Below the pieces are notes generated by a model. That model was not told the DNA's origin, searched no databases, and saw only the letters and a program-made list of their open reading frames with translations. Source: Xanthobacter flavus (lineage in GTDB: Bacteria; Pseudomonadota; Alphaproteobacteria; Rhizobiales; Xanthobacteraceae). From it: a DNA stretch of 64,000 nt. The stretch spans positions 3,183,001-3,247,000 of the forward strand of contig NZ_JAGGML010000001.1 in the NCBI RefSeq assembly GCF_017875275.1. Direction: 5' to 3'. Both the position numbers and the translations under genes were made by a program. Shown here in pieces: positions 13,294 through 63,994 of this stretch (positions are counted from its first letter, which is position 1; every line of letters begins with the position of its first letter).

Positions 13294-13372
13294 CGCGTCC
13301 ACGCTCCGCCAGCCCGACCGCGCAGGAAGCCGGCGCAAGCCCCGCCGATCGGCCCGGATTTGCCGCGTGCGC

Positions 13373-16886: not shown

Positions 16887-16918
16887 CCGGCGCGGTCCGC
16901 CAGCGTCGAACGAGAGCC

Positions 16919-16947
16919 GGGGCGGGGAGGCAAAACCCCTCCGCCCC
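16919..16947 (+). terminator. GC-rich hairpin between mmsA and the binding-protein gene
   Basis: GGGGCGGGGAGG pairs with CCCCTCCGCCCC across a CAAAA loop, with one mismatch, just after mmsA. There is no T-run after it, so it is not a classical intrinsic terminator. It may stabilise or partly separate the mmsBA message from that of the binding protein. Confidence 0.4.
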
Positions 16948-17010
16948 GCATTGGCCGAGGCCGCAAGAGGCCGGGCCGAAAAAAGACAACAACATAAATG
17001 GAGGAACGCC

Positions 17011-18231: not shown

Positions 18232-18501
18232 TCCTCCCGCGACCGGCAGGTGCCCTCTGGCGCCCGCCGGTCGCCTCTCGTCGGATGAGGGCAGGGCGGG
18301 CCATCGCTGGTCGAGCCGCTCGCGACGACGGGAACCCTATGATGGCCAGTATCGCGCGCCGGCGCCGCCGGCGATGGTCTTGTCCTGCAGCATGACCGGG
18401 CCATCGGCGCGCTCTTTTGGCCCGACGACATGCACCGCCTTGCAAAGACGCGCGTGACTGGGGATGGTTGCGCGGGAGAGCTGGCGGGGGGCTCCGGCGG
18501 G

Positions 18502-19506: not shown

Positions 19507-19543
19507 ACATCGCCGCTTGACGCCTCCGGCTTTCTCTGACAGC

Positions 19544-19565
19544 TTTGAACAAACGATTGTTCAAA
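19544..19565. promoter_or_regulatory. LacI-type operator upstream of the polyol operon
   Basis: The arms TTTGAACAA and TTGTTCAAA are perfect inverted repeats around a central ACGA, giving a 22-bp site with the central CpG usual for LacI-family operators. A TTGACG at 19517-19522 could be a -35 element, so the site would cover the start of transcription of the operon that begins at 19648. Confidence 0.75.
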
Positions 19566-19647
19566 ATCGATAACGACGACGGGAGGACGCCAGCATGGGA
19601 GCCCGCAAGGGACCGCATCGCCGTGCCTCTCGCGCAAAGAGGTGCCA

Positions 19648-47861: not shown

Positions 47862-49115
47862 ATGACCAAGAAGACTGAAAGGTCCGGTAAGACTGAAAGG
47901 TCCGGGACGCTGAAGAGCGCTTTGGCCTCCACGGCGCTCGCCGCCCTCGTCTGCGCAGCCTTTGCCGGCGGCGCGCGCGCCGAGAGCGTGAAGGTGGGCG
48001 TGCTCAACGACCAGGCCGGCGTGCAGGCGGACTTCGCCGGCGCGGGCTCGGTGGTGGCGGCGAAGATGGCCATCGCCGATTTCGGCGGCAAGGTCGCCGG
48101 GATGCCCATCGAGCTGGTCGCCGCCGACCACCAGAACAAGGCCGATATCGGCGTGAACGTCACCCGCCAGTGGTTCGACACGGACGGGGTGGACGCGGTG
48201 CTGGACGTGCCCAATTCCGCCGTCGCGCTGGGCGTCAGCGGCATCGCCAGGCAGAAGAACAAGGTGGTGGTCATCTCCGGCGGCGGCACCTCCGACCTCA
48301 CCGGCAAGGACTGCACCCCCAACACCGTCCACTGGACCTACGACACGTGGGCGCAAGCCAACACGGTGGGTACCGCCGTCACCAAGGCCGGCGGCAACAC
48401 CTGGTATTTCATCTCGGTGGACTACGCCTTCGGCCATGCGCTGGAGCGCGACGCAGGCGAGGCCATCAAGGCGGCCGGCGGCAAGATTCTCGGCACCGTC
48501 AGGCACCCGCTCGGCACCTCTGACCTCTCCTCCTTCCTGCTCCAGGGCCAGGCCTCCGGCGCCAAGGTGATCGGCCTCGGCAGCGCCGGGGCGGATACCA
48601 TCAATGCGGTGAAGCAGGCGTCCGAGTTCGGCATCGTCAAGGCCGGGCAGAAGCTCGTCGCCATGTTGATGGTGCTCAACGACATCAGTGCGCTGGGGCT
48701 GGAGACCGCGCAGGGCCTGTTCCTGTCGGAAGCCTTCTACTGGGACCTGAACGATCAGACCCGCGCCTTCGCCAAGCGCTTCGCTGCCGCCAATGGCGGG
48801 CGCTATCCCAACATGGTCCATGCCGGCGTCTATGCCGGGCTTCTGCACTATCTGAAGGCGGTGGAGAAGGTGGGCAGCGCGAAGGACGGAGCCAAGGTGG
48901 TGGAGGCCATGAAGGCCATTCCCACCGATGACCCGCTGTTCGGCAAGGGCGCGGTGCGTCCGGATGGCCGCGCCATCCACGACATGCATCTGTTCGAGGT
49001 GAAGAGCCCGGCGGAGTCGAAGGGGCCCTACGACTTCTACAAGCTCATCGCCACCGTTCCCGCCGACAAGGCCTTCCGCCCCCTCGCCGCCGGCAACTGC
49101 CCGCTGGTGAAGTAA
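47862..49115 (+). CDS. LivK-type ABC transporter substrate-binding protein
   Basis: A 417-residue periplasmic-binding protein. GGGAGG precedes the ATG. After a charged start the signal peptide LASTALAALVCAAFAGGARA ends before ESVKVGVLNDQAGVQADFAG. It is a close paralogue of the protein at 17011. No permease or ATPase genes accompany it; it follows the dehydratase by 46 bases and is probably co-transcribed. It may use a transporter encoded elsewhere. Codons 4-15 contain a duplicated KTERSG. Confidence 0.9.
   Translation: MTKKTERSGKTERSGTLKSALASTALAALVCAAFAGGARAESVKVGVLNDQAGVQADFAGAGSVVAAKMAIADFGGKVAGMPIELVAADHQNKADIGVNVTRQWFDTDGVDAVLDVPNSAVALGVSGIARQKNKVVVISGGGTSDLTGKDCTPNTVHWTYDTWAQANTVGTAVTKAGGNTWYFISVDYAFGHALERDAGEAIKAAGGKILGTVRHPLGTSDLSSFLLQGQASGAKVIGLGSAGADTINAVKQASEFGIVKAGQKLVAMLMVLNDISALGLETAQGLFLSEAFYWDLNDQTRAFAKRFAAANGGRYPNMVHAGVYAGLLHYLKAVEKVGSAKDGAKVVEAMKAIPTDDPLFGKGAVRPDGRAIHDMHLFEVKSPAESKGPYDFYKLIATVPADKAFRPLAAGNCPLVK
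47871..47905 (+). repeat. 18-bp in-frame tandem duplication in binding-protein gene
   Basis: AAGACTGAAAGGTCCGG occurs twice with an 18-bp period, coding KTERSG twice just before the signal peptide. It lengthens the charged n-region of the signal and is probably a recent slippage event. Confidence 0.9.
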
Positions 49116-51782: not shown

Positions 51783-52511
51783 TCAGCCCGCGGCCGTCTC
51801 CGCCGCGCGCATGCCGAGATAGGCGGCGATCACGCGCGGATCGCGGGCGAGCGCTGCGGCGGTGTCGGCGAAGATGATGCGCCCGTGCTCCATCACATAG
51901 CCGTAGCTGGCCACCGAGAGCGCCTTGCGCGCGTTCTGCTCCACGAGAAGCACGGTGGTGCCCTTGGCGTTGATGTCGGCGATGGTGGCGAAGATGTCGT
52001 TCACCACATGGGGCGCGAGCCCCATGGAGGGCTCGTCCAGCAACAGCAATTTGGGCCGCGCCATCAGCGCCCGGCCCATGGCCAGCATCTGCTGCTCGCC
52101 GCCGGAGAGGGAGCCGGCATACTGGAAACGCCGCTCCTTCAGGCGCGGGAAGCGGGTGTAGATCATTTCCATGTCGTCGGCGATGGCGGGGTCGCTTCCG
52201 CGCACATAGGCGCCGACCTTCAGATTGTCCTCCACCGACATGGAGGCGACCACCCGCCGCCCCTCCGGCACGAGGGAGACGCCGGCGCGGACGATCCTGT
52301 CTGCGGGCCGGGCGGTCATGTCCCGGCCCTCGATGCGCACGGTGCCGGAGAAGGCACGCACGAGGCCGCAGATGGTGAGCAGCGTCGTCGTCTTGCCCGC
52401 GCCGTTGGCGCCGATGAGGCAGACGCAGGCGCCGGCCGGGACGGTGATGTCGATGTCCTCGACCGCCGCAACGGAGCCATAGCCGGAGGTGACCTTGGTA
52501 AGCTCAAGCAT
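51783..52511 (-). CDS. livF: Branched-chain-type ABC transporter ATPase LivF
   Basis: A 242-residue ATPase: Walker A GANGAGKTTTLLTI, signature SLSGGEQQMLAMGRAL, Walker B KLLLLDEPSMGLAPHVV, H-loop LLVEQNARKAL and the LivF-type ending ALARDPRVIAAYLG. It is the last gene of the minus-strand operon and its start overlaps livG by 8 bases. It powers, with LivG, the importer formed by LivH and LivM. Confidence 0.96.
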   Translation of the reverse strand: MLELTKVTSGYGSVAAVEDIDITVPAGACVCLIGANGAGKTTTLLTICGLVRAFSGTVRIEGRDMTARPADRIVRAGVSLVPEGRRVVASMSVEDNLKVGAYVRGSDPAIADDMEMIYTRFPRLKERRFQYAGSLSGGEQQMLAMGRALMARPKLLLLDEPSMGLAPHVVNDIFATIADINAKGTTVLLVEQNARKALSVASYGYVMEHGRIIFADTAAALARDPRVIAAYLGMRAAETAAG

Positions 52512-53277
52512 CCTCGGTCCCCAGATAGGCTTCGATCACGCTCGGCATGCGGCGCACCTCCTCGGGCGTGCCGGCGGCGATCTCGCGGCCGAAATTGAGC
52601 ACCACGATATGGTCGCTCACCCGCGCCACGAACTCGATGTCGTGCTCGATGAGGAGCACGGTGATGCCCATGTCGCGGATGGCGAGCACGAGGTCGGCCA
52701 GCGCCCGCTTCTCGGCGAAGTTCATGCCCGCCGCCGGCTCGTCCAGCAGCAGCAGGCGCGGCTGGGTGGCCAGCGCCCGCGCGATCTCCACGCGCCGCCG
52801 GTCGCCGTAGGAGAGGCCGCCCACGGCCACGTCCTTGAGATGGGTGATGCCCACGAGATCGAGCAGCGCCTCGCAGCGCGCCTTCTCCCGCGCCTCGCTG
52901 CGCTTCACCGCCGGCAGGCCGAGCAGCACGTCGAGGAGGCTGGCCGACTGGTGGCGGTGGGCGCCCAGCAGCACATTGGCGAGCGTGGTCTCGGTGGCGA
53001 GCAGGCGGATGTTCTGGAAGGTGCGGGCGACACCCAAAGCCGCCACCTTGTGCGGGGCGAGGCGGGCGATGTCCACGCCGTCGAGGCGGATGTGGCCGGC
53101 GTCCGTGGGATAGAGGCCGGTGATCATGTTCATGGTGGTGGTCTTGCCGGAACCGTTGGGGCCGATGAGGCCCGTCACCTGTCCGGCGGTGGCGGTCAGC
53201 GACACGCTGTCCACCGCCACCACGCCCTGGAAGCGCTTGGCCACCTGCCAGAGTTCGAGCTGGGCCGCCGCCATCAT
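52504..53277 (-). CDS. livG: Branched-chain-type ABC transporter ATPase LivG
   Basis: A 257-residue ATPase with Walker A GPNGSGKTTTMNMITG, signature GLSYGDRRRVEIARAL, Walker B LLLLDEPAAGMNFAE and the LivG-type end AAGTPEEVRRMPSVIEAYLG. It overlaps livM by 4 bases and livF by 8. The complete KHMGF set shows the importer is intact, unlike the liv remnants at 10.6-11.6 kb. Confidence 0.96.
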   Translation of the reverse strand: MMAAAQLELWQVAKRFQGVVAVDSVSLTATAGQVTGLIGPNGSGKTTTMNMITGLYPTDAGHIRLDGVDIARLAPHKVAALGVARTFQNIRLLATETTLANVLLGAHRHQSASLLDVLLGLPAVKRSEAREKARCEALLDLVGITHLKDVAVGGLSYGDRRRVEIARALATQPRLLLLDEPAAGMNFAEKRALADLVLAIRDMGITVLLIEHDIEFVARVSDHIVVLNFGREIAAGTPEEVRRMPSVIEAYLGTEDA

Positions 53278-54158
53278 TTGGCTCCTTCAGGTGCGGCGCG
53301 CCGGGCGCCCGCCGGCTTGCGCGGCCGCCATTTGAGGAGCGACATGGCCCCGCCGGGCAGGAACAGCACCACCGCGAGAATGAGCAGGCCCATGAGGATC
53401 TCGCGCCACTGGCTGGAGAAGCGCAGCAGCTCCGGCAGCAGCGTGGTGAAGATGGCGCCCACCAGCGGCCCCAGAAGCGCGTTCACGCCGCCGAGGATGG
53501 GATAGGCGAGGGCATCCACGCTCCGCAGCAGGCCGAAATCCGTCGGGCCGACGAAGAAGTTGAGATGCGCCGCAAGCCCCCCCACGCCGCCGCTGACGAA
53601 GCCGGAGGCGACGAACAGCGAAAGGCGCTGGCCGAACACGTTGACGCCCATGGCCTCGCTCATCACGTCGTCCTGCCGGATGGCGAGGATGGAGCGACCG
53701 AAATAGGAGCGGCGCAAAGCGAAGACGAAATAGAGCGCGATGAGGACGAGCAGCACCAGCTGCCAGGTCTCGGTGTAGCGCGGGATGCCGTAGATGCCGA
53801 TGGCGCCGCCGGTGACGGCATCCCAGTTCAGCGCGATCACCCGCACCACCTCGGTGAAGGCGAAGGTGGCGAGCATGAAATAATCGCCGCGCAGCCGCAG
53901 CACGGGCGCGCCGATGATCAGCGCCACCGCCGCCGCCAAGAGCCCGCCCGCCACCACCGCCACGGCGAAAGGCGCGCCGACCTGCATGGTGAGATAGACG
54001 CTGCAATAGGCGCCCACCGCCATGAAGCCGCCGGTGCCCAGCGTGAACATGTTGGCCGCCAGCGCCAGCCACACGCCGTAGGCGAGGAGCGTATTGAGCA
54101 GGCACAAATTCACGAGGTTGCCGTAGCTGGCCAGAAAGGTATCGAGGGCGGCCATCAT
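53274..54158 (-). CDS. livM: Branched-chain-type ABC transporter permease LivM
   Basis: A 294-residue permease: LALAANMFTLGTGGFMAVGAYCSVYLTM, LRLRGDYFMLATFAFTEVVRVIALNWDAVTGG and RSYFGRSILAIRQDDVMSEAMGVNV, the LivM signature. The start at 54158 overlaps the livH stop (ATGA). The frame stays open far upstream through livH, but this is a shadow. It forms the channel with LivH. Confidence 0.95.
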   Translation of the reverse strand: MMAALDTFLASYGNLVNLCLLNTLLAYGVWLALAANMFTLGTGGFMAVGAYCSVYLTMQVGAPFAVAVVAGGLLAAAVALIIGAPVLRLRGDYFMLATFAFTEVVRVIALNWDAVTGGAIGIYGIPRYTETWQLVLLVLIALYFVFALRRSYFGRSILAIRQDDVMSEAMGVNVFGQRLSLFVASGFVSGGVGGLAAHLNFFVGPTDFGLLRSVDALAYPILGGVNALLGPLVGAIFTTLLPELLRFSSQWREILMGLLILAVVLFLPGGAMSLLKWRPRKPAGARRAAPEGAK

Positions 54159-55039
54159 GCGCGGCGCTCCTCGAAGCCGGAGAAGAGGCCGGTGGGCTTG
54201 ACCAGGAGGATCAGGAAGATCAGCCCGAAGCCGATGGCGTCCCGGAAGGCGGAGGAGACGTAGGCGACGGAGAACACCTCGACCAATCCCAGCAGGAAGC
54301 CGCCGGCGACCGCGCCGGGGATGTTGCCGAGCCCGCCGAGGATCATCACGGTGAGGCCCTTCACCAGCATGTGCTCGCCCATGAAGGGGGACACCACGTT
54401 GAACAGCAGGCCAAGCAGCACGCCAGCCGCCCCCGCCAGTGCGCCGGCGATGAAGAAGGTGATGAGGATGGTGCGCCCCACCTCCACGCCGACGATGCGC
54501 GCCACATCCTCCGAAAAGGCCACGGTGCGGATGGCGCGGCCCACCGAGGTCTTCTGCAGGGTGAAGCCGAGGATGCCCATCAGGATCACGGCCGTGACCA
54601 CCACGATCACCTGAAGCAGCTGCACACGCACGCCGCCGATCTCCCACACGATGGCGGTGAAGGGGTTCGGCGGATAGCCGTGCACGGCGGTGCCGAACAC
54701 CTCCTGCGCGATACCCACCAGGAGGCGGGCCAGCGCGAGGCTGGCGACGAGGCCCATCCATTTGTGCCCGCCGCGCAGCCGCAGCACGCGGAACACCAGC
54801 AGCTCCGACGCCATGCCGAGCACCCCGCCGCCCACCAGCGCGACGACGAGCGCCAACGGCAGCGGCAGGCCGAGGAGGGCGATCTCCAGCCCGAGATAGG
54901 CGCCCACCATGAAGAAGGCGCCCTGCGCCAGGTTCACGATGTTGAGCACGCCGAAGATCAGCGTGCAGCCGATGGCGAAGACCGCATAGATCGAGCCGAG
55001 CGACAGCCCGTTCACGACCTGCTGCAAAAAGGTTGTCAT
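54155..55039 (-). CDS. livH: Branched-chain-type ABC transporter permease LivH
   Basis: A 294-residue permease beginning MTTFLQQVVNGLSLGSIYAVFAIGCTLIFGVLNIVNLAQGAFFMVGAYLG, the standard LivH start, with TSVGRAIRTVAFSEDVARIVGVEVGRTI as the conserved loop. It starts 115 bases after the livK stop. Together with LivM it makes the membrane pore of the importer dedicated to this catabolic operon. Confidence 0.96.
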   Translation of the reverse strand: MTTFLQQVVNGLSLGSIYAVFAIGCTLIFGVLNIVNLAQGAFFMVGAYLGLEIALLGLPLPLALVVALVGGGVLGMASELLVFRVLRLRGGHKWMGLVASLALARLLVGIAQEVFGTAVHGYPPNPFTAIVWEIGGVRVQLLQVIVVVTAVILMGILGFTLQKTSVGRAIRTVAFSEDVARIVGVEVGRTILITFFIAGALAGAAGVLLGLLFNVVSPFMGEHMLVKGLTVMILGGLGNIPGAVAGGFLLGLVEVFSVAYVSSAFRDAIGFGLIFLILLVKPTGLFSGFEERRA

Positions 55040-55154
55040 GCGCTGATCCCCCGGACCTGCCCGAACCGGTCGAAGCACCGTGCCGCCGCGGATGCCCGGG
55101 CTGCACGGCGCGCCAATCCATCCGCCCCGGCCTGTGACCGGGGCGGGCGGGGGA

Positions 55155-56291
55155 TCACTGGGCGAGCTGGAACTTGCCGTCCTTCAGCTTCAGCACCTTG
55201 GCGACCAGCACCGGCTCGCGGTCCTTGTCGAAGGAGAAGGGGCCGAGGACGGTCTGGAGGTCCTTGGTGTCGGCGATGGCCGCGCGCAGCTTCGCGGGAT
55301 CGGACACGCCGCCCGCGCGCTTCACCGCATCGGCGAAGATGGTGACGGCGGCATGGGCCTGGGCGGCGAAGGTGTCGGGGGCCGAGCCGTACTTGGCCTT
55401 GTAGGCCTCCACGAACGCCTTGTTGGCGGGCGTGTCGAAATCGATGAACCAGCCCGAGCCCACGAGGAAGCCCTGCGCGGCGGGGCCGGCGAGATCGTTC
55501 AGCTTGGTCGAGATGGCCGCATTGGCACCGAGGAACACCGTGGACTGCGGAATGCCGAGCTGGCGCGCCTGCCGCACGATGTTGGCGGTCTCTTCCGCGA
55601 GGCCGCCGACGACGATGATGTCGGGGTTGGCCGCCTTGATCTTGGTGAGCTGGGCGGAATAGTCCACGTCGCCCTTCTGGAAGGTCTCGGTGGCCACCAC
55701 CTTGATGCCGGCCTTGTCGAGGGCGGCCTTGTGGACGCCGTAGGCGGCCTTCATCAGCACGTCGTCAATGCCGTAGATCTGCGCCGCCGTCTTGGGCTGG
55801 TAGCGCTTGACGGCATAGGCGAGCACGCCGGGGAACACCGCCGCCTCTGGGGCGCTGGTGCGGAAGATGTATTCGCCGATGGCGGGCACGCCGGGCGCGG
55901 TGTTGGACGAGGCGATCACCGGCACCTTGGCGGCGTTGGCAATCGGGTCGGCGGCGAAGGCCGAGGTGGTCAGCGTCGGCCCGAAGATGACCGTCACCTT
56001 GTCCTGGTTGATCAGGCGCTGGAAGATGTTGACGGTCTGGCCGCGGTCGCCCGCATCATCCTGATGGATGGGCACGAGCTTGAGGTCGCCGAGCTTGCCG
56101 GAGGCGTTGATCTCGGCGGCAGCCAGCTCCGCGCCGTTCTTCTGCATGGTGCCGTAGAGCGCAGCCGAGCCGCCCGATGTGGACTGCACGATGCCGAGCT
56201 TCACGTCCGCCGCGATGGCAGCGGGCACGGCGGCGAGGGAAAAGGCGGTGGCGGCGATGAGTAGGCGCGTGAGACGGGCGTGCATCATCAT
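55155..56291 (-). CDS. livK: Branched-chain-type ABC transporter binding protein LivK
   Basis: A 378-residue periplasmic protein: signal LTRLLIAATAFSLAAVPAAIAA, mature start DVKLGIVQSTSGGSAALYGTMQKNGAELAAAEIN, later VIFGPTLTTSAFAADPIANAAKVPVIASSNTAPGVP. It differs from the two orphan paralogues in the window and belongs to the intact importer. Its start overlaps the HAD phosphatase stop by 4 bases, linking transport and catabolism in one message. The ligand is unknown; by context an N-heterocyclic or nucleoside-related compound. Confidence 0.94.
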   Translation of the reverse strand: MMMHARLTRLLIAATAFSLAAVPAAIAADVKLGIVQSTSGGSAALYGTMQKNGAELAAAEINASGKLGDLKLVPIHQDDAGDRGQTVNIFQRLINQDKVTVIFGPTLTTSAFAADPIANAAKVPVIASSNTAPGVPAIGEYIFRTSAPEAAVFPGVLAYAVKRYQPKTAAQIYGIDDVLMKAAYGVHKAALDKAGIKVVATETFQKGDVDYSAQLTKIKAANPDIIVVGGLAEETANIVRQARQLGIPQSTVFLGANAAISTKLNDLAGPAAQGFLVGSGWFIDFDTPANKAFVEAYKAKYGSAPDTFAAQAHAAVTIFADAVKRAGGVSDPAKLRAAIADTKDLQTVLGPFSFDKDREPVLVAKVLKLKDGKFQLAQ

Positions 56292-57058
56292 GGCTCCTGA
56301 GGAAGGTCGGTCGTTGATGAGCCCTTATTTTGCGGGCCCTTATAAAGGCTTTGCAGGACTGTTGGCGTTGGTATCGGGGTCGTGCGCGGCTCGATCTGGG
56401 CGAGCACGGGCGCGAGCGCCAGGGAATGGAAATGGACGTGCGCGGCGTCCGGCGTCTCGGGCAGCCCGTGGTCGCCGATGAGCACCGTCTGCATGCCGAG
56501 GGCGTGCGGCACGGCGAGGTTCACCGCGCGGTCGTCGAACATGATGGCGCGCTCGGGCGCCACGCCGTGGCGGGCGAGCATGGTGTCGTAGGCGGCACGC
56601 TCGGGCTTGCCGATGTAGTCGCAGGCGGCGATGTCGCAGACGCCCTCGAACAGGTCGGCGATGCCGAGGCGTTCCAGCACCCGCTCGGCATGGGCGCGCG
56701 AGCCGTTGGTGAAGACGAGGCGCCGGCCGGGCAGGGCCTCCAGCGCGAGCCGCAGCTCGGCGTTTTCCGCCAGCACCGTCAGGTCGATCTCATGGACGAA
56801 GGCGAGGAAATCCTGCGGCTTCACCGCGTGATGGCGCTGCAGGCCGACGAGGGAGGTGCCGTAGGTTTCGTAATAAAGCGCATGCAGCGCCGCCGCCTCT
56901 TCCGGCGTGGAGCCGGTGAGCTGCTGGATGAACAGCCAGACGCGGGCGAGCATCTGGCCGTGCAGGCCGGCGGAGCGCGGGTACAGCGTATCGTCGAGGT
57001 CGAAGACGAAGGTCTCCGTACCCGGCCTCAGACGAAATGGCATGTCCCCGCGCATCAT
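56288..57058 (-). CDS. HAD phosphatase, pyrimidine 5'-nucleotidase type
   Basis: A 256-residue HAD-superfamily hydrolase. Motif I FVFDLDDTLYPRS, motif II LVFTNGSRAHAERVLERLGI, motif III lysine in DYIGKPERAAYDTML and motif IV FDDRAVNLAVPHALGM. The DLDDTLYP start and alpha-helical cap match SDT1-like pyrimidine 5'-nucleotidases, which dephosphorylate nucleotides. ATG 57043 is an alternative start. Between the NadC-like and livK genes it may remove the phosphate from the nucleotide made in this pathway. Confidence 0.9.
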   Translation of the reverse strand: MMRGDMPFRLRPGTETFVFDLDDTLYPRSAGLHGQMLARVWLFIQQLTGSTPEEAAALHALYYETYGTSLVGLQRHHAVKPQDFLAFVHEIDLTVLAENAELRLALEALPGRRLVFTNGSRAHAERVLERLGIADLFEGVCDIAACDYIGKPERAAYDTMLARHGVAPERAIMFDDRAVNLAVPHALGMQTVLIGDHGLPETPDAAHVHFHSLALAPVLAQIEPRTTPIPTPTVLQSLYKGPQNKGSSTTDLPQEP

Positions 57059-57067
57059 CCCCCGCGC

Positions 57068-57958
57068 TCAGTTGGACAGCTGCTTGAGGCGGTCGATGGT
57101 CCGCTTCGCGCTCGGCTTGATGTCGCGGACATCGAGGCTGATGTCGAGGGCCTTCACCGTGTGGGTGAGGTCGCCGATGGAGATCACATCCACCCCCAGC
57201 TCCGCGATGGGAACGATGGTGGTCTCGTTGATGCCGCCGGACGCCTCGGTCATGGCGCGGCCCTTGGTGAGCTTCAGGCCCTCGCGCATCTCGTCGAGGT
57301 CCATGTTGTCGAACATGATGATCTCGACCCCGGCGTCCAGCGCCTCCTGCACCATCTCCAGGCTCTCGCACTCCACCTCGAACTTGAAGGTGTGCTGCGC
57401 GCTCGCCCGCAGGATCTTCACCGCCTCGGTGATGGAGCCGGCGATCTTGATGTGATTGTCCTTCACCAGCACGCAATTGGCGAGGTTGAAGATGTGGTTG
57501 TGGGCGCCGCCCACGCGCACGGCGTATTTCTGCACCATGCGCAGGCCCGGCCAGCCCTTGCGGGTATCGGTGATGCGCACGCCGGTGTGCTTCACCAGAT
57601 CGGCGTAGCGGCGGGTCTTGGTGGCGATGCCGCTCATCTGCTGCAGCCAGTCGAGGGCCGAGCGCTCGATCACGAAGAAGGTGGAGGCGCGGGCCTGCAC
57701 CCGCATCAGCACGGTGCCGGGTTCCACCGCGGCTCCTTCCTCCACCAGCCATTCGATGCGCGCCTCGGGCTCGATGGAGCGGATGGTCTCGTCGGCGAAC
57801 AGCATGCCGCAGACGATTCCGTTCGCCTTGGCGTAGATGTTGGCGGTCTGAACCGGATCGTCGCCGACGAGAAAGCCTCCGGTTGTATCGCCGGAGCTTA
57901 ACTCCTCGCGCAGGCCCAGCTCCACGAGAGGCCGGATCATAAAGCGGTTCAACTTCAT
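57068..57958 (-). CDS. NadC-like phosphoribosyltransferase with altered active-site residues
   Basis: A 296-residue protein of the quinolinate phosphoribosyltransferase family over its whole length: EELSSGDTTGG, IERSALDWLQQMSGIATKTRRY, ITDTRKGWPGLRMVQKYAVRVGG, LVKDNHIKIAG, EVECESLEMVQEAL, IMFDNMDLDEMREG and EASGGINE. Canonical NadC has ALN, DTRKTTPGLR and NHR; here these are ALD (Asp103), DTRKGWPGLR (Gly135, Trp136) and NHI (Ile156), although Arg133, Lys134, His155 and the KDNH lysine remain. No nadA or nadB is next to it. It may use a substrate other than quinolinate; ordinary NAD synthesis cannot be ruled out. It lies in an operon with a decarboxylase-like gene, an amidohydrolase and an importer. 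A 95-base AT-richer gap precedes it, possibly with an internal promoter. Confidence 0.88.
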   Translation of the reverse strand: MKLNRFMIRPLVELGLREELSSGDTTGGFLVGDDPVQTANIYAKANGIVCGMLFADETIRSIEPEARIEWLVEEGAAVEPGTVLMRVQARASTFFVIERSALDWLQQMSGIATKTRRYADLVKHTGVRITDTRKGWPGLRMVQKYAVRVGGAHNHIFNLANCVLVKDNHIKIAGSITEAVKILRASAQHTFKFEVECESLEMVQEALDAGVEIIMFDNMDLDEMREGLKLTKGRAMTEASGGINETTIVPIAELGVDVISIGDLTHTVKALDISLDVRDIKPSAKRTIDRLKQLSN

Positions 57959-58053
57959 TACGCGGCTCCTGGGGCGCTCCCGGCCCGGCTCTGTGATACT
58001 GCCTAGCAGCTGTTTTCTACTACATCAATCAACAAAATCATTTATCGACAGCG

Positions 58054-59310
58054 TCAGCCATCCAGCCGGTTGGTGAAGGCCTTGCCGCCCTTCATCACCA
58101 GATGCAGGCGGTCGCGCTGCTCCAGGATGCGGATGTCGGCGAGCGGGTCGCCGTCCAGCACCAGAACGTCGGCCATGAAGCCGGCCTTCAGCGCGCCGAG
58201 GTTGGGCTGCTCGATGCATTCCGCCGCCTTGGTGGTGGATGCGACGATCACCTCCATCGGCGACATGCCGAGCCAGTCCACCATGAAGGCCAGCTCCGCC
58301 ATGTTCTCGCCCACCAGCAGGCGGTGCGACTGGTCGGTGCCCATGGCCACCTTCACGCCGCGCTTCACCGCCTCCTTCCAGAGGGGGATCTGCGTCTGCA
58401 TGAGGGAATAGATCTGCGCGTCCTTCACATCCTCCTGGCCCAATTGGTGGCTGGCCCAGGCGGTGTTCTTTCGGCGGTGCTCGATGGACAGCGGCACCAG
58501 CGCGAGCGTCGGCACCCACCAGATGCCGCCCGCGATCATGCGGTCCACGCTCTCCTCATCCATGAACCAGCCGTGCTCCAGCGAGTGGATGCCGGACCTG
58601 ACCGCGTTCTTGATGCCGGCGAGGCCCTCGGCATGGACGGCCACGCGCTTGCCCTTGGCGGCGGCCTCGGAGACGGCGGTGGAAATCTCCTCGATGGTGA
58701 ATTGCGGCTCGTCCCAGCTGTCGGTCACCGAGGTGATGCCGCCGGTGGCGCAGATCTTGATGAAGTCGGCGCCGCGCATGAGCAGTTCGCGCACCAGCCG
58801 GCGGATCTCCTCCACCCCGTCCGCCACCGTGTGCGGGAGCCAGGCGCGCTTCTGGATGCGCATGCCGGCGGGGAGCCAGTAGTCGCCATGGCCGCCGGTC
58901 TGCGAGACCATGCCCAGCGAGATCAGCAGGCGCGGCCCGTCGATGATGCCTTCCTCGATGGCCTGCCGGAAGCCGGCGTCGGCGCCGCCCATGTCGCGTG
59001 CGGTGGTGATGCCGCAGGCGATGGTCTCGCGAAAAACCTCGATGGATTTCAGCACGTTGTAGGTGGGCGTGTTGAGCAGATGCTGGCGCATGTCGCGGGC
59101 GCGGTAGGTGCCGTGGACATGGGTGTCGATGAAGCCGGGCAGCACGGTGCGCCCCGCCGCGTCGAGCTTCCGGGCGCCCGCCGGCACGCTCACCTGGCTC
59201 TCGGGACCGGCGGCGACGATGCGCCCTTCCTCGATCACCACGACCGCGTTCGGCACGGGGTCCGCCCCGGTGCCGTCGATCATGGTTCCGCCGACGATTG
59301 CGATGGCCAT
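58054..59310 (-). CDS. Metal-dependent amidohydrolase, imidazolonepropionase-like
   Basis: A 418-residue amidohydrolase: LPGFIDTHVHGTYRARDM (first metal ligands), a carboxylated-lysine type site in GADFIKICATGGITS, AVHAEGLAGIKNAVRSGIHSLEHGWF and MGTDQSHRLLVGENM (last Asp). This set matches the binuclear group of HutI/Xaa-Pro-like amidohydrolases. ATG 59310 is used; the frame begins 9 codons upstream. In the operon it probably opens a ring or cleaves an amide of the imported compound. Confidence 0.9.
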   Translation of the reverse strand: MAIAIVGGTMIDGTGADPVPNAVVVIEEGRIVAAGPESQVSVPAGARKLDAAGRTVLPGFIDTHVHGTYRARDMRQHLLNTPTYNVLKSIEVFRETIACGITTARDMGGADAGFRQAIEEGIIDGPRLLISLGMVSQTGGHGDYWLPAGMRIQKRAWLPHTVADGVEEIRRLVRELLMRGADFIKICATGGITSVTDSWDEPQFTIEEISTAVSEAAAKGKRVAVHAEGLAGIKNAVRSGIHSLEHGWFMDEESVDRMIAGGIWWVPTLALVPLSIEHRRKNTAWASHQLGQEDVKDAQIYSLMQTQIPLWKEAVKRGVKVAMGTDQSHRLLVGENMAELAFMVDWLGMSPMEVIVASTTKAAECIEQPNLGALKAGFMADVLVLDGDPLADIRILEQRDRLHLVMKGGKAFTNRLDG

Positions 59311-59429
59311 ACGCGCCTTGCCTTTCGCTCTGTTCAAAAAGTTAGCAACGCCAAGTGCCAGGCATTGAGAGCCAGCCGCCGACGCAACGATGGGTCCAGC
59401 CCGGCTGCGCTGGCTCCTTGGATATTCCG

Positions 59430-60887
59430 TTACGTGAGGTCCACCACCACGTTCTTGATCTCACAGTAGAAATCCAGCGCGTGAAGGCCAAGCTCGCGGC
59501 CGATGCCCGAGCGCTTGTAGCCGCCGAAAGGCGCGAACACGCTGGTCTTCGAGGCGCTGGGCAGGCCGTTCACGGCCACCATCCCGGTGCGCATGCCCCG
59601 CGCGACCCGGAGCGCGCGACCGATGTCGCGGCACCAGACGGAGCCATTGAGACCATAGTCGCTGTCATTGGCCAGCGCGATGGCCTCGGCCTCGCTGTCG
59701 AATGGCGTCAGGGAGCAGACTGGGCCGAAGATCTCCCGGCTGAAGGCGGGATTGTCCGGCCCGACGCCCGAGAGGATGGTCGGGGGATAGAAGAAGCCGT
59801 CGCCCTCCGGCAGGGCGCCGCCGCTCACCAGCGTCGCCCCGGCTTCGCGGGCCTGCGCCACGGTGCGGTCCACCGCATCCCGGTGGGACGAGGAGATGAG
59901 CGGGCCGAGATTGGTCGCCGGGTCCAGCGCCGGGCCGGTCTTCAGCCGCGCCGCTGCGAAGGCGAAGGCACGGGCGAAGGGCTCCAGCGCGCCGCGCTCC
60001 ACCAGCAGGCGCGAGCGGGCGGAGCAGGACTGGCCGGCATTGCCGAAGCCGGACGCCACCGCGCTCGCCGCCGCCTTCTTCATGTCGGCGTCGGCGAAGA
60101 CGACCGCGGCGTTCTTGCCGCCCAGCTCCAGCGCCACGCGCTTGATGGAGGCGGAGGCAAGCCGCATCACTTCCGAGCCCACGGCGGTGGAGCCGGTGAA
60201 GGAGATGCCATCGATGCGCGGGTCTTCCGCGAGCCGCCGCCCCACGTCCGCGCCGCCGGGCAGCACGGAGAGGAAGCCGTCCGGCACGCCGGCCTCGCGG
60301 CACACTTCGGCGAGGAGCAGGGCGGTGAGCGGCGTCAGCGGCGCCGGCTTCAGGATGGCGGCGCAGCCGGCGGCGAGCGCCGGGGCGAGCTTCCACGAGG
60401 CGCCGAGCAGCGGGAAATTCCACGGCACGATCTGCGCCACCACGCCGAGGGGCTCGCGCAATGTGAAATCCAGCAGATCCCTGCCGAGGGGGATGGTGTC
60501 GCCGAACACCTTGTCCATGGCCCCGGCATAATAAGTGAAGACGCGGATCGCCCCCTCCACCTCGCGCAGGGCGCCGGAGATGGGCTTGCCGGCGTTGACA
60601 GCCTCGATCTGCGCGAACTGGTCCTGCCGGGCCGCGATGCCGGCGGCGATGCGGTGGAGCACGGCGCCGCGATCGACCGGCGGAAGATGGGGCCAGTCGC
60701 CGGCATCGAAGGCATGGCGCGCCGTGCGGATCGCCGCCTCGACTTCCACCGGCCCGGCCAGCGCGACCTCGGCGAGCGGCGCGCCGGTCCAGGGATCGAC
60801 CAGCGCCTCGACCTCGCCGCCCATGGCGGGCACGAAGCGCCCGCCGACGAACGGTTCGCGATGGAGGGACGGCAGCACGGCGCTCAT
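59430..60887 (-). CDS. NAD(P)-dependent aldehyde dehydrogenase
   Basis: A 485-residue ALDH: VPWNFPLLGASWKLAPALAAGCAAI, ISFTGSTAVGSEVM, general-base Glu in ALELGGKNAAVVF, catalytic Cys in GNAGQSCSARSRLLV and EIFGPVCSLTPF. It resembles betaine, succinate- or aminoaldehyde dehydrogenases. Its start overlaps the OMP-decarboxylase-like stop by 4 bases; 119 bases separate it from the amidohydrolase. It would oxidise an aldehyde released in the pathway. Confidence 0.95.
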   Translation of the reverse strand: MSAVLPSLHREPFVGGRFVPAMGGEVEALVDPWTGAPLAEVALAGPVEVEAAIRTARHAFDAGDWPHLPPVDRGAVLHRIAAGIAARQDQFAQIEAVNAGKPISGALREVEGAIRVFTYYAGAMDKVFGDTIPLGRDLLDFTLREPLGVVAQIVPWNFPLLGASWKLAPALAAGCAAILKPAPLTPLTALLLAEVCREAGVPDGFLSVLPGGADVGRRLAEDPRIDGISFTGSTAVGSEVMRLASASIKRVALELGGKNAAVVFADADMKKAAASAVASGFGNAGQSCSARSRLLVERGALEPFARAFAFAAARLKTGPALDPATNLGPLISSSHRDAVDRTVAQAREAGATLVSGGALPEGDGFFYPPTILSGVGPDNPAFSREIFGPVCSLTPFDSEAEAIALANDSDYGLNGSVWCRDIGRALRVARGMRTGMVAVNGLPSASKTSVFAPFGGYKRSGIGRELGLHALDFYCEIKNVVVDLT

Positions 60888-61633
60888 GGCGCCGTCGTCT
60901 CCAGCGCCTGCATCTTCTCATAGAGCGCGGTGGCGGCGCCGGCCGGGTCGTTCGCCTCGGTGATGAGGCGGCCGACGATGGCGAAGCGGCGCGGGCAGTC
61001 CTTCGCGGCGGCGAACGCCCCCTCGATGGTGCCGCCCAGCGAGCCGAAGCCGGTGAGGAATACCAGCGGGTCCTTCACGTTCGCGGCGATCCAGCGCGAC
61101 CAGCGGGTGACCTTGGCGGTGTCGTGCGCCGGCAGCACGAAATGGTCGGCGCCGCCCTCCGCCGCACGGGCGAGGATAAGGTCCAGCGCATTGTCGAGGA
61201 GATAGCCGCCGCCGGAGACGCCATAGTCGGCGACCGGGATCTCGCCGCCGACAACCGGCGCGATGCCGGCCTTCAGCGCCTCGCCGACGAAGCCGTCCAC
61301 GGCGGTGGGGCCGGCCACGGGGAACAGGATCAGCCCGTCCACCTCGGCCTCGGCGCACAGAGCGGTGAACTTCTTCGCCATGTCCGGCATGTCCGGGCCG
61401 GCCTTCTGGTGGTCGTAGAGGATGGGCAAATCGGTGAGGTCGCGCACCCGCCGCATGGACTCCTTCAGGCCATGGCGCAGCACGCTGGTGAGCCCGAGCT
61501 TGTAGCCGGCAACGCCGGGCACGCCGCTCGTCGCCTTCACCACCGCATCGAACTTCTCCTGCGTCTCGATGTCGAGAGCGGGGACGATGCCCACGGTGCC
61601 GGAAAAGGTCTTCGCCGAAAAAGTGCTGGCCAT
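60884..61633 (-). CDS. Orotidine-5'-phosphate-decarboxylase-like TIM-barrel protein
   Basis: A 249-residue protein of the OMP-decarboxylase suprafamily. Matching points: IVPALDIE (Asp21), GYKLGLTS (Lys45), ILYDHQKAGPDMP (Asp74, Lys77, Asp81) in place of the DxKxxDIP catalytic strand, TGFGSLGGTIEGAF near the phosphate loop and FAIVGRLITEANDPAGAA at the end, like the VGRxIxxAxDP of PyrF. The spacing of the catalytic Asp/Lys/Asp differs by two residues from classical PyrF. ATG 61654 is another possible start. It is the first gene of the ten-gene operon, so a role in pyrimidine synthesis is unlikely; it may decarboxylate or otherwise process a related nucleotide or acid. Confidence 0.82.
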   Translation of the reverse strand: MASTFSAKTFSGTVGIVPALDIETQEKFDAVVKATSGVPGVAGYKLGLTSVLRHGLKESMRRVRDLTDLPILYDHQKAGPDMPDMAKKFTALCAEAEVDGLILFPVAGPTAVDGFVGEALKAGIAPVVGGEIPVADYGVSGGGYLLDNALDLILARAAEGGADHFVLPAHDTAKVTRWSRWIAANVKDPLVFLTGFGSLGGTIEGAFAAAKDCPRRFAIVGRLITEANDPAGAATALYEKMQALETTAP

Positions 61634-61956: not shown

Positions 61957-62451
61957 ATGAAGACGGGTCTTCTCGCCGCGCTCGCCGTCGCCGCCACACT
62001 CGCCACCGCTGGGGGCGCACAGGCGCAGGTCAAACCCTACGGGGCGGGCTTCGATGGCTGGAACTTCACCGCCACCACGGAGAAGTCCGGTATCATCAAC
62101 TGCCGCGCCACCCGCAAGGTCGGCAACCGTGACGACATCATCGCCCGGCGCACGGATGGCCACGTTTACATGAGCGCCAAGGCCGAGGGCCGTAAGGGCG
62201 ACTTCAAGGGCACCATCATCAACGTCCCCGGCAAGCCGCGCGGCATGCTGGAATGGACGGTGCCGGGGGGCGCTGATGGCGCGCGCATGTGGTTCATCAT
62301 GCCCTACGTGGCGATGGACCACATCGTGGCCGCCGGCGCCTATCAGTTCTCGCTGCCGGATTCCGAGGATGTCGGGACGGTCAACCTCGGCAAGCGCGCC
62401 AAGGAGGCGTGGGCCCGCGTCAACCAGTGCGTCCAGGCCAACGGCGGCTGA
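61957..62451 (+). CDS. Small secreted protein of unknown function
   Basis: A 164-residue protein. The first 23 residues are a clear signal peptide (LLAALAVAATLATAGGAQAQ), so it is exported to the periplasm. The mature part has FDGWNFTATTEKSGIINCRATR, DDIIARRTDGHVYMSAKAEGRKG and a C-terminal AKEAWARVNQCVQANGG; two cysteines could form one disulfide. No known domain was recognised. It is single and divergent from the preceding operon. Confidence 0.75.
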   Translation: MKTGLLAALAVAATLATAGGAQAQVKPYGAGFDGWNFTATTEKSGIINCRATRKVGNRDDIIARRTDGHVYMSAKAEGRKGDFKGTIINVPGKPRGMLEWTVPGGADGARMWFIMPYVAMDHIVAAGAYQFSLPDSEDVGTVNLGKRAKEAWARVNQCVQANGG

Positions 62452-62498: not shown

Positions 62499-63461
62499 TC
62501 ACGCCACGGGCCGTGCCATTCCGGCGAGCAGGGTCAGCGCGTCGGCGAGATCCTGCTCCTCGATGCCGCGGGCGATGAGGACCATGCGGTTCTCGTCCCC
62601 TGCCGTGTGGGAGAGGAGGCCGGGGGAATAGACCAGCCCCTGCACCCCGTGCAGCACCACCGGCTGCGGCACCCCTTCCAGATGCAGGATGCCCTTGAGG
62701 CGCAGCACGGCGGCGCCGAACAGGTCGCTCACCCGGTCGAGCCAGGCGTCCACCTGGTCCTGGGTGAGGCGGCCGGGGAACGCGAGGGAGGCGGTGGTCA
62801 CCGCATGGCCGACGCCGGTGGCCGAGAAGCGCCGGCTGAGCGGGCGCGGCGTCTCGCGCGGGTCGATCCACAGCAGCGAGCCGTCGCGCGCCGTCGCCGG
62901 CAGCACATGGCATTCCGCCAGAGGATTGAGTATCGCCACCTCGCGCTCGGCCGCGGCGAGCTGGTCCGCAGTGGCAAGGTCCGCCTTGCTGATGAGGACG
63001 CGGTCGGCGAGGGCCACCTGCGTCATCCCCTCGGGATGATGAGCGAGGGTTGAGGCGAAATTGGCCGCATCCACCACCGTGGTCACGCCGGCGATAGAGA
63101 AATGCCGGTTGAACAGCGGATCGGCGATCAGCGCATGGAGCACCGGCGCGGGATCGGCGAGGCCGCTCGTTTCCACCACCACCCGGCGGAAGGCGAAATC
63201 GTCCATGGCGCGACGGCGCAGCAGGCCATTGAGCGTGGCGTTCAGCGAGCCCTTCAGGCGGCAGCAGATGCAGCCGCCCTCCAGCAGCATCACCTCGTCG
63301 CTGCCGGTCTCGATGAGCGCATGGTCGATGCCCGCGTCGCCCGCCTCGTTGATGATGACGGCGGTGTCGCGGAAGGCCGGGCGCTTGAGGAGATCGTTGA
63401 GCAGGGTCGTCTTGCCCGCGCCGAGAAAGCCCGTGACGAGGACGACCGGAATATCGCTCAT
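62499..63461 (-). CDS. CobW/YjiA-family GTPase metallochaperone
   Basis: A 320-residue G3E GTPase: Walker A VTGFLGAGKTTLL, the metal-binding CxCC in EGGCICCRLKGSL, VVVETSGLADPAPVL, base-recognition ISKAD (NKxD type), and a C-terminal CobW domain (GVGHAVTTASLAFPGRLT). Such proteins insert or buffer Zn, Co or other metals. It sits 8 bases after the pncC stop and is probably co-transcribed. A link with the cobalt-requiring nitrile hydratase 30 kb away is possible but unsupported. Confidence 0.93.
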   Translation of the reverse strand: MSDIPVVLVTGFLGAGKTTLLNDLLKRPAFRDTAVIINEAGDAGIDHALIETGSDEVMLLEGGCICCRLKGSLNATLNGLLRRRAMDDFAFRRVVVETSGLADPAPVLHALIADPLFNRHFSIAGVTTVVDAANFASTLAHHPEGMTQVALADRVLISKADLATADQLAAAEREVAILNPLAECHVLPATARDGSLLWIDPRETPRPLSRRFSATGVGHAVTTASLAFPGRLTQDQVDAWLDRVSDLFGAAVLRLKGILHLEGVPQPVVLHGVQGLVYSPGLLSHTAGDENRMVLIARGIEEQDLADALTLLAGMARPVA

Positions 63462-63469
63462 GCGCGGCG

Positions 63470-63994
63470 TCAGCCGAGCTGCGACTTGAGCAAGGCGAGG
63501 GCCGCCTGCACCGCGCACAGGCGCACATTGTCCCGGCTGCCGGGGAAGACGTGGCGCTCTTCCGCAAGTCCGCCGTCGCGCGTCGCCACCGCGATGAAGA
63601 TGGTGCCCACGGGGTTCACCGCATTGCCGCCGCCCGGCCCGGCATAGCCGGTGATGGCGACGGTGGCGCCCGCCTCGGAATGGCCGAGGAGGCCCTGGGC
63701 GAGGCCGCGCGTGACCTCCGCGCTCACCGCCCCATGGGCGGCCGAGATGGCGGCCGGAACGTCGAGGCCGGTGGCCTTGGCGGAGGAATGGTAGAGCACA
63801 TAGCCCCGCTCGAAGATCTCCGAGGCGCCGGACACCGAGGTGAGGCAGGCGGCGACCAGGCCGGACGTCACCGTCTCCGCGGCGGCAAGGCGGATGTTCC
63901 GCGCGCGGGCGGCCGCGAGCACGTCGGCGGCGAGGGTGAGGAGGGGGGCGGGGAATAAGGTTTCGTCCGCCTGGAGCAGAGCGGTGTCGGGCAT
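63470..63994 (-). CDS. pncC: Nicotinamide-nucleotide amidase (CinA C-terminal family)
   Basis: A 174-residue CinA_C domain protein: RNIRLAAAETVTSGLVAACLTSVSGASEIFERGYVLYHSSAKA, and VAITGYAGPGGGNAVNPVGTIFIAVA, which contain the catalytic serine/threonine and glycine-rich loops. The protein is PncC-type, deamidating NMN to nicotinate mononucleotide in NAD recycling. It is complete, starting six bases before the window edge region (ATG 63994). Confidence 0.93.
   Translation of the reverse strand: MPDTALLQADETLFPAPLLTLAADVLAAARARNIRLAAAETVTSGLVAACLTSVSGASEIFERGYVLYHSSAKATGLDVPAAISAAHGAVSAEVTRGLAQGLLGHSEAGATVAITGYAGPGGGNAVNPVGTIFIAVATRDGGLAEERHVFPGSRDNVRLCAVQAALALLKSQLG

Follow-up and report, generated by a model that had tools for sequence, protein, structure and literature searches.

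A conserved gene cluster from Xanthobacter flavus, studied here in a 64,000-nucleotide stretch of DNA (the window), probably serves, on balance, the catabolism of an imported N-heteroaromatic carboxylate that would be degraded as its 5-phosphoribosyl derivative (ribotide), with picolinate- or dipicolinate-like acids as the leading guess for the substrate. The direct support came from the gene content, its conservation and co-occurrence, the separate clade and altered pocket of a NadC-like phosphoribosyltransferase, and the fold and conserved residues of an orotidine-monophosphate-decarboxylase-like (OMPDC-like) enzyme. A sequence-only reading had named no pathway using this set; no described pathway with it was found in the open-licence literature searched, and the conserved set is apparently undescribed.

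Ten open reading frames, all in frame with their stops, were located on the minus strand at 51783..61633, as the sequence-only reading had placed them, and their families were confirmed by Pfam and NCBIfam. The overlaps of 4-8 bp that it reported had the right sizes, and the HAD stop did overlap the livK start, but five junctions overlapped rather than four: 4 bp at OMPDC/ALDH, HAD/livK, livH/livM and livM/livG, and 8 bp at livG/livF. The remaining gaps were 92, 95, 9 and 76 nt. The proposed operon borders proved too narrow. The conserved neighbourhood also took in a CobW/COG0523 gene (62499-63518) and a CinA/PncC-like gene (63470-63994), both upstream on the minus strand, and a divergent MocR-type regulator began approximately 60-190 bp beyond the window end. 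Not counting the regulator, the set amounts to 12 or more genes within the window.

The neighbourhood search suggested by the sequence-only reading showed that the set recurs in relatives. Among 18 stretches picked by the presence of the OMPDC-like gene, 17 contained the NadC-like gene; in the exception, L015, a NadC-like gene was found with amidohydrolase and HAD genes elsewhere in the genome. The same set occurred in other genera, with the gene order changed in distant hosts, which indicated that the grouping was more than chance. Of the 14 genomes in the genus, 4 had the NadC-like gene, and it was these 4 that had the OMPDC-like gene; the distribution in the family was patchy (9/391 genomes). 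The NadC-like protein was found in all 11 hosts searched (drawn from 15 hosts), and the 20 kb stretch of one copy, L082, contained neither an OMPDC-like nor an ALDH gene.

The NadC-like protein (57068..57958, minus strand) matched both QRPTase domains (PF02749 and PF01729) and passed the NCBIfam nadC equivalog (TIGR00078, 297.4 against a cut-off of 198.4 bits), and it was 41% identical to the NadC of the same genome. According to PMC4065032, R162 and R139 of Mycobacterium tuberculosis (Mtb) NadC bind the 3-carboxylate of quinolinate, R105' and K172 bind the 2-carboxylate, and activity of the R162A mutant was not detected. The R162 equivalent was Arg in all 36 canonical NadC rows, whereas it was Ile in 13 and Met in 3 of the 16 NadC-like relatives and Ile in the window (I156). 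The T141 equivalent was Thr in 36/36 canonical rows and Gly in the window (G135) and all 16 relatives, changing RKT to RKG. The equivalents of R105', R139, K140, H161 and K172 were each kept in the window and in 16/16 relatives, and the residues for the leaving 2-carboxylate and those on the PRPP side are retained. Because the 3-carboxylate arginine is lost, quinolinate is unlikely as a substrate, judging from these two positions and the mutant described in PMC4065032. The NadC-like proteins formed their own long-stemmed clade with 100/100 support (19 rows), and the two-residue signature distinguishes them from true NadC.

The OMPDC-like (HUMPS-fold) enzyme (60884..61633, minus strand) matched PF00215 with 36.1 bits, over the threshold of 27, and fell far under the PyrF cut-offs (TIGR01740 pyrF, 20.8 against 92.3 bits; NF010386, 33.1 against 208 bits). 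Its AF2 model had a pLDDT of 84.6, with residues 78-80 (the motif loop) and 132-145 under 50, and its best PDB matches were OMPDC of M. thermautotrophicus (TM 0.77 by query and 0.87 by target). OMPDC removes the carboxylate adjoining the ribosylated nitrogen of OMP. Residues D21, K45, D74, K77, D81 and R222 were invariant in 15/15 rows; D74, K77, D81 and R222 may correspond to the Asp-Lys-Asp array and the phosphate Arg, with the lysine spacing altered in the loop modelled with low confidence. The enzyme shares the fold of PyrF and apparently keeps its Asp, Lys and Arg positions; unlike in PyrF, the Asp-x-Lys motif is lengthened by two inserted residues (YDHQKAGPDMP), and Leu stands at the position of Gln185 of the M. 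thermautotrophicus enzyme. It is predicted to decarboxylate a ribotide other than OMP. Housekeeping nadC and pyrF genes were located elsewhere in the genome, which bears out the earlier view that the two cluster proteins are not the housekeeping enzymes.

The amidohydrolase (AMH; PF01979, 153.4 bits; 58054..59337, minus strand) was present in 15/18 stretches and is predicted to be a ring-opening or C-N hydrolase. Its listed start is TTG, and the region common to relatives runs from an ATG at 59310; the motifs HVH, K, H, H and D were kept in 16/16 rows. Its nearest solved relatives were dipeptidase- and ochratoxinase-like and included prolidases and arginine carboxypeptidases. A HisI-like gene took the place of AMH in L019 and L020, whose genomes contained no AMH above 35% identity to that of the window. 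The host of a third HisI-like set, L083, had the AMH-type cluster L018 as well, which limits a strict exchange to L019 and L020. The DCD and Cys motifs of PRA-CH were found in all three HisI-like rows, and the protein of L020 matched PF01502 (59.8 bits) below the HisI equivalogs (NF000768, 81.1 against 126 bits; NF002747, 92 against 187 bits).

An aldehyde dehydrogenase of the betaine-aldehyde/aminobutyraldehyde/hydroxymuconic-semialdehyde-like type (ALDH; 59430..60887, minus strand; PF00171, 531.8 bits) was found in all 18 stretches; it scored below the cut-offs of all of the 25 NCBIfam models listed (best BADH, 445 against 668.6). The HAD phosphatase (56288..57058, minus strand), putatively a pyrimidine 5'-nucleotidase, passed the equivalog TIGR01993 for that enzyme (191.8 against 142.9 bits); this type occurred in 13/18 stretches and another HAD type in 3 more. 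Both upstream genes were present in 15/18 stretches. The PncC-like protein (NMN-deamidase family; PF02464, 141.8 bits; TIGR00199 PncC_domain, 118 over 68.9 bits) has a changed motif, AETVT, at what we take to be the position of the canonical AES-motif serine of PncC; this serine was replaced (ETVT) in 15/15 rows. The COG0523/CobW-type GTPase (PF02492, 149.6 bits; CobW_C, 51.9 bits) is possibly a Zn chaperone for the amidohydrolase. A PRPP synthetase gene adjoined 6/18 clusters; each of these 6 genomes held two copies, and the genome of the window held one. PsuG enzymes act on C-glycosides, and homologues of this pseudouridine-phosphate glycosidase/indigoidine synthase A family (PF04227) were found in L018-L021 (366 bits in L018 and 287 bits in L020), that is, in only 4/18 stretches and not in the cluster of the window.

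The Liv/HAAT importer of the window was a complete K-H-M-G-F set on the minus strand: LivK-type binding protein (55155..56291; PF13458, 218 bits), LivH-type permease (54155..55078; PF02653, 136.8 bits; start GTG, or ATG at 55039), LivM-type permease (53274..54158; PF02653, 113.3 bits), and the ATPases LivG (52504..53277; PF00005, 113.4 bits; LivG model, 259 bits) and LivF (51783..52511; PF00005, 99.7 bits; LivF model, 257.6 bits). The livK product scored 170.6 bits with NF011933, whose cut-off is 477 bits, and its closest solved structures were 4obb/4nqr of the HAAT family. The importer does not define the system, since it was missing from 7/18 stretches, some of which had TRAP genes (L017 and L021) or other binding proteins there.

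In the proposed pathway, the acid would be taken up by the Liv importer or its substitutes, and the NadC-like enzyme would join PRPP, supplied in six hosts by the extra PRPP synthetases, to the ring nitrogen adjoining the 2-carboxylate, whose CO2 might or might not be lost in the reaction. The OMPDC-like enzyme would remove the carboxylate adjoining the ribosylated nitrogen. Hydration and opening of the N-ribosylated ring would then fall to the Zn amidohydrolase, for which the COG0523 GTPase is a possible helper, and in other hosts to the HisI-like cyclohydrolase. ALDH would oxidise the resulting aldehyde. Release of the carbon chain and sugar would be the task of the HAD phosphatase or the PncC-like amidase, with the PsuG-like glycosidase as a further candidate in other hosts. 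The MocR-type regulator would control the cluster. Of the readings considered, the earlier proposal that an imported N-heterocyclic carboxylate is ribosylated, decarboxylated, ring-opened and dephosphorylated agrees best with the new evidence, but quinolinate, which it had named, is unlikely and nucleoside import is disfavoured.

The logic resembles that of HisG and HisI in histidine synthesis, N-phosphoribosylation of a ring nitrogen followed by hydrolytic ring opening, and the HisI homologues lie between the OMPDC-like and ALDH genes in L019, L020 and L083; the cluster differs in taking its phosphoribosyltransferase from the NadC family and, in the window, in using AMH. Attachment of sugar phosphate to ring nitrogen acids is known from vitamin and histidine synthesis; to our knowledge, such PRPP-type activation is not known from the catabolism of ring compounds. 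In the known pyridine-carboxylate routes (nic and pic), the free acid is hydroxylated. The pic route is the subject of PMC10142695. These operons likewise combine importer, regulator, decarboxylase, hydrolase and dehydrogenase genes, and probably share the substrate class, whereas a phosphoribosyltransferase is central here. More tentatively, and with some doubt, the enzymes could form a general oxygen-independent route for N-heteroaromatic acids, consisting of the NadC-derived transferase, the OMPDC-derived decarboxylase, a Zn amidohydrolase or HisI-derived cyclohydrolase, and ALDH, with the PsuG-like enzyme and a dedicated PRPP synthetase returning ribose phosphate to PRPP; for picolinate or dipicolinate, the ribotide would be an N-ribosyl pyridinium. 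If the proposed pathway is true, spending PRPP as a disposable handle for activation in catabolism would, as far as we know, be a new strategy of metabolism, HisG-HisI logic would be turned to catabolism, and a family that automatic annotation labels NadC would be accounted for. One phosphoribosyltransferase, one decarboxylase and two apparently interchangeable hydrolases offer a concrete test set for the substrate hunt.

The prolidase, carboxypeptidase and ochratoxinase relatives of AMH would also suit an order in which AMH acts first, not as a ring-opening enzyme but freeing from an imported amide conjugate a heterocyclic acid that would go to the NadC-like/OMPDC-like pair for disposal or salvage. 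We consider this order unlikely: the HisI-like gene accompanies the same core in the AMH-less L019 and L020, which suggests a shared cyclohydrolase-type step, an argument that is not decisive because an alpha/beta hydrolase in both stretches could be the amidase. Import of a nucleoside-like or N-ribosylated compound, with the NadC-like enzyme phosphorolytic and the HAD, PncC-like and PsuG-like proteins stripping ribose phosphate, has a low probability. These three belong to nucleotide-processing families and Liv-type importers are broad, but the adjoining PRPP synthetase paralogs indicate PRPP use and therefore disfavour nucleoside import, TRAP genes replace Liv in L017 and L021, no nucleoside kinase was seen among the proteins scanned (without a dedicated search), and the decarboxylating QPRT reaction is by established chemistry practically irreversible.

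Phosphoribosyltransferases, PRPP synthetases and PsuG-family enzymes are also found in nucleoside biosynthesis, and the patchy distribution would suit a biosynthetic cluster in which PRPP and a heterocyclic acid are built into a nucleoside-like cofactor or antimetabolite or into a C-nucleoside, Liv importing the precursor. This is rather improbable, as catabolic clusters are the more usual place for ALDH and amidohydrolase genes, importers of several kinds and a MocR regulator, and the neighbours scanned, in which no dedicated search was made, included no exporter, carrier protein or self-resistance gene. It is very improbable that the cluster is an ordinary amino-acid importer operon with a redundant second QPRTase and second PyrF. 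The NadC model score over its cut-off would agree with this, and a search at E<=1e-40 revealed no ordinary NadC of lower score in 3/11 cluster hosts (those of L017, L018 and L021), so that a NAD role is possible there; against it stand the loss of the R162 equivalent in 16/16 relatives, the separate clade, the sub-cut-off PyrF scores, the nadC and pyrF genes elsewhere, and the occurrence of the pair in only 4/14 genus members.

Molybdenum hydroxylases are the usual tool for N-heterocycles, and the genes of a three-subunit enzyme of this kind lay near L018, approximately 1.6 kb from ALDH on the opposite strand, which speaks against the proposed pathway. Used as a query, this enzyme had no relatives in the window or the other 19 stretches.

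The window's genome was a single contig of 5.35 Mb, and the ten genes that the sequence-only reading had joined into one operon were confirmed on the minus strand, running from 61633 down to 51783. The gene families it had named were borne out by Pfam and NCBIfam, and the overlaps of 4-8 bp were present at five junctions rather than the four it had counted, the rest being four gaps of 9-95 nt. A small ORF without a Pfam match (61957-62451, plus strand) separated the CobW gene (62499-63518) from the OMPDC-like gene (60884-61633). The same gap held a PRPP synthetase gene on the opposite strand in L009, L010, L012, L013, and L014, stretches from other genomes with related genes. The regulator in the window's genome, just outside the window, was of the GntR-aminotransferase (MocR) type, and the copy in L009 scored above the PdxR model cut-off (408.8 vs 320 bits). 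A second MocR-type regulator with 43% identity to that of the cluster was located at 11743-13224 (plus strand), distant from the operon. The nearest named relatives were Xanthobacter sp. YC-JY1 and X. aminoxidans, with 92-99% identity across five enzymes.

The NadC-like (57068-57958) and OMPDC-like genes had been proposed to stand apart from ordinary NAD and pyrimidine synthesis, and they were indeed not the sole copies in the genome: an ordinary NadC (208 bits, C1:1985725) and an ordinary-type PyrF (191.5 bits, compared with 36 bits for the OMPDC-like protein) were encoded elsewhere. A third QRPTase homologue (G000:C1:2058728-2059231, 120 bits), with Phe at the 2-carboxylate lysine position, was probably ModD-like. 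These separate nadC and pyrF genes, together with the pocket residues, ruled out a housekeeping role of the two window genes in this genome. When 11 of the 15 hosts found via the OMPDC-like protein were searched, the NadC-like protein was present in all 11 at 430 bits or more, and a second, lower-scoring NadC (176-270 bits) was found in eight; in the other three (hosts of L017, L018, and L021), none was found at E<=1e-40.

Phylogenetic analysis placed the cluster NadC-like proteins in a clade of their own (19 rows, 100/100, stem 0.85), apart from 35 canonical rows; the broken gene of L019 and the gene of L027, which contained an internal stop, were omitted. To compare the pockets, positions of the Mtb enzyme were matched by motif, using the contexts of R105, R139, R162, and K172 in mutagenesis primers quoted in passages of PMC4065032. 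The window counterparts were ER, DTRK, NH-I, and LVKDNH, all at an offset of 6. L082, L083, and L084 were left out, and the broken L019 gene was without the C-terminal positions. The equivalents of R105', R139, K140, H161, and K172 were kept in the window protein and all 16 relatives. The R162 equivalent, Arg in 36 canonical rows, was Ile in the window and in 13 relatives and Met in three, and the T141 equivalent, Thr in the same 36 rows, was Gly in the window and all 16. According to the same passages, the 3-carboxylate is held by R162 and R139 and the 2-carboxylate by R105' and K172, and the activity of R162A was undetected (PMC4065032); in the porcine enzyme, Arg161 and its neighbors contact the 3-carboxyl of NaMN (PMC3633916). 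Quinolinate was thought unlikely as the substrate given the Ile or Met at the R162 position, and the pocket residues suggested a substrate with a carboxylate adjacent to its ring nitrogen and nothing anionic at C3. The predicted model of the NadC-like protein had a pLDDT of 85.7. The NadC-like gene of an Afipia MAG (L019, 6678-7470) was read in two overlapping frames and left as pieces, and the split was perhaps an assembly error.

The best solved match to the OMPDC-like profile was the OMPDC entry 4lui, followed by M. thermautotrophicus OMPDC entries. The AF2 model (pLDDT 84.6) matched OMPDC with a TM-score of 0.77 by query length and 0.87 by target, although confidence was below 50 at the motif residues 78-80 and at residues 132-145. 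Residues D21, K45, D74, K77, D81, and R222 were invariant in 15 of 15 rows; we take them to be equivalent to D20, K42, D70, K72, D75, and R203 of the M. thermautotrophicus enzyme, with an uncertain lysine register owing to a two-residue insertion. Unlike that enzyme, which has Gln185, the OMPDC-like protein had Leu. We infer that it would decarboxylate a ribotide with a carboxylate beside the ribosylated nitrogen instead of OMP.

Fifteen loci were retrieved with the OMPDC-like protein, from Xanthobacter, Rhodopseudomonas, Bradyrhizobium, Acuticoccus, Tistlia, Sneathiella, and MAGs labeled Afipia, Xanthobacteraceae, Rhodospirillales, and Burkholderiales; L044 and L045 were added by a family-wide profile search, whereas L041, L042, L043, and L046 repeated L010, L016, L009, and L019 and were counted once. 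In these 17 stretches and the window, all chosen on the OMPDC-like protein, conservation of the neighbors was upheld (tblastn, E<=1e-10): ALDH (59430-60887 in the window) was present in 18 of 18 and the NadC-like gene in 17. The amidohydrolase AMH (58054-59337), CobW, and CinA-like (63470-63994) genes were each found in 15, MocR in 14, HAD of the window's type (56288-57058) in 13 with another HAD type in three more, and full livKHMGF in 10, with an eleventh (L014) running off the stretch end. Less frequent were PRPP synthetase (6/18), PsuG-like (4/18), alpha/beta hydrolase (3/18), TRAP DctP with DctM (2/18), and HisI-like genes (2/18). Because these counts were per stretch, a missing gene may still be in the genome; L015 had no NadC-like gene in its stretch but carried one with AMH and HAD elsewhere (L084). 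The gene order was OMPDC-ALDH-AMH-NadC-HAD-liv in one group, AMH-NadC-OMPDC-PsuG-hydrolase-HAD-ALDH in L018, and NadC-OMPDC-HisI-ALDH in L083, and this variation indicated that the clustering was not only unshuffled ancestry. Distances of the NadC-like, OMPDC-like, and ALDH proteins at 17 loci (L015 and L019 omitted, L083 added) were correlated, with Mantel r of 0.76-0.92 and 0 of 2000 permutations as high, the permutations being uncorrected for species kinship.

The cluster was rare and patchy. Profile searches found the OMPDC-like protein in 1 of 398 phylum genomes, the window's copy alone, and in 9 of 391 family genomes; a single-protein query of the class sample also found only the window's copy (1/289). 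Within the genus, it occurred in 4 of 14 genomes, and the same four carried a same-clade NadC-like protein with at least 92% identity. In a phylum sample of equal size, the NadC-like profile scored the window's gene at 585 bits and no other gene above 281. No plasmid copy matched the OMPDC-like protein of the window or L020 at E<=1e-8.

A HisI-like gene lay between the OMPDC-like and ALDH genes in L019, L020, and L083, and no AMH was present in these stretches. In whole-genome searches, no AMH reached E<=1e-30 in the L019 host, and the L020 host had AMH relatives only at 30-35% identity, compared with 59-80% for the cluster AMH of the L018 and L015 hosts; L083 comes from the same host as L018, where AMH was present. 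HisI is a ring-opening enzyme that acts on an N-phosphoribosylated base, so an N-ribosylated ring is the simplest reading of the hydrolase-step substrate. PRPP synthetase adjoined the cluster in six genomes, each with a second copy, and the window's genome had one copy, outside the cluster. PsuG-like enzymes were encoded in L018-L021 and occurred together with the CinA-like gene only in L021; the two may serve a common release step, although this pattern is weak and also coincides with the division of the loci into near and distant relatives. The PncC-like protein (63470-63994) and 14 relatives had ETVT where a serine motif is usual, and may for this reason form a distinct amidase subfamily. 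Upstream of the NadC-OMPDC-HisI-ALDH genes of L083, a metallo-beta-lactamase-fold protein and an SMP-30 gluconolactonase-like gene were found (11982-14042), which could be part of this pathway or of a neighboring one.

Our results slightly favored catabolism of an N-heteroaromatic acid by a PRPP-dependent route as the function of the cluster, in which the acid would be taken up, N-phosphoribosylated, decarboxylated, and opened by ring hydrolysis, after which an aldehyde would be oxidized and the sugar released. Picolinate or dipicolinate specifically was the leading guess for the substrate, at a fairly low probability, on two points of chemistry: a 2-carboxylate is required by the NadC family, and the carboxylate that OMPDC removes lies beside the ribosylated nitrogen. 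Dipicolinate satisfies both, and picolinate fits if the NadC-like enzyme is non-decarboxylating. Comparison with the homarine operon led nowhere, homarine being mentioned only once or twice in the related papers, and mimosine, trigonelline, and ectoine routes were considered and dropped. Each part belongs to, or branches off from, a known family; the gene combination and the proposed strategy are, to our knowledge, new, and no such cluster was described in the open-licence PMC literature searched for the pathway.

The importers varied among Liv, TRAP (L017 and L021), and another Peripla_BP_6 protein (L019 and L020), and a TctC-type protein adjoined the PsuG-like gene in L021. The structures nearest to the L017 DctP were 2hzk (recorded as SmoM, sorbitol/mannitol) and then 7ug8 (ketoacid-binding), and the structural neighbors of the binding proteins indicated no usable ligand. 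The window's Peripla_BP_6 protein at 47862-49115 (also delimited as 47982-49112, plus strand) showed 50% identity to the cluster-side protein of L020, but this link was undercut by a second family copy in the window (17011-18210, plus strand) with 45%, and the likeness is probably family resemblance only. In L018, a molybdenum hydroxylase of three subunits (MoCoBD, 2Fe-2S, and FAD; 16559-20320, minus strand) was located about 1.6 kb beyond ALDH on the other strand, with no relative found in the window or the remaining stretches. Such enzymes often hydroxylate N-heterocycles, so its position may hint at the substrate class. The L018 host had three NadC-like copies, two of which adjoined a fumarate-reductase-like set. 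One of these, on L018's contig (L082, 1-11527), was 72% identical to the window's protein, with no OMPDC-like or ALDH gene within its 20 kb stretch. Within a few kb of it were genes for an AIRS/FAD fusion protein, a glycosyltransferase, and an FGE-sulfatase/DinB protein, which resemble a selenoneine cluster.
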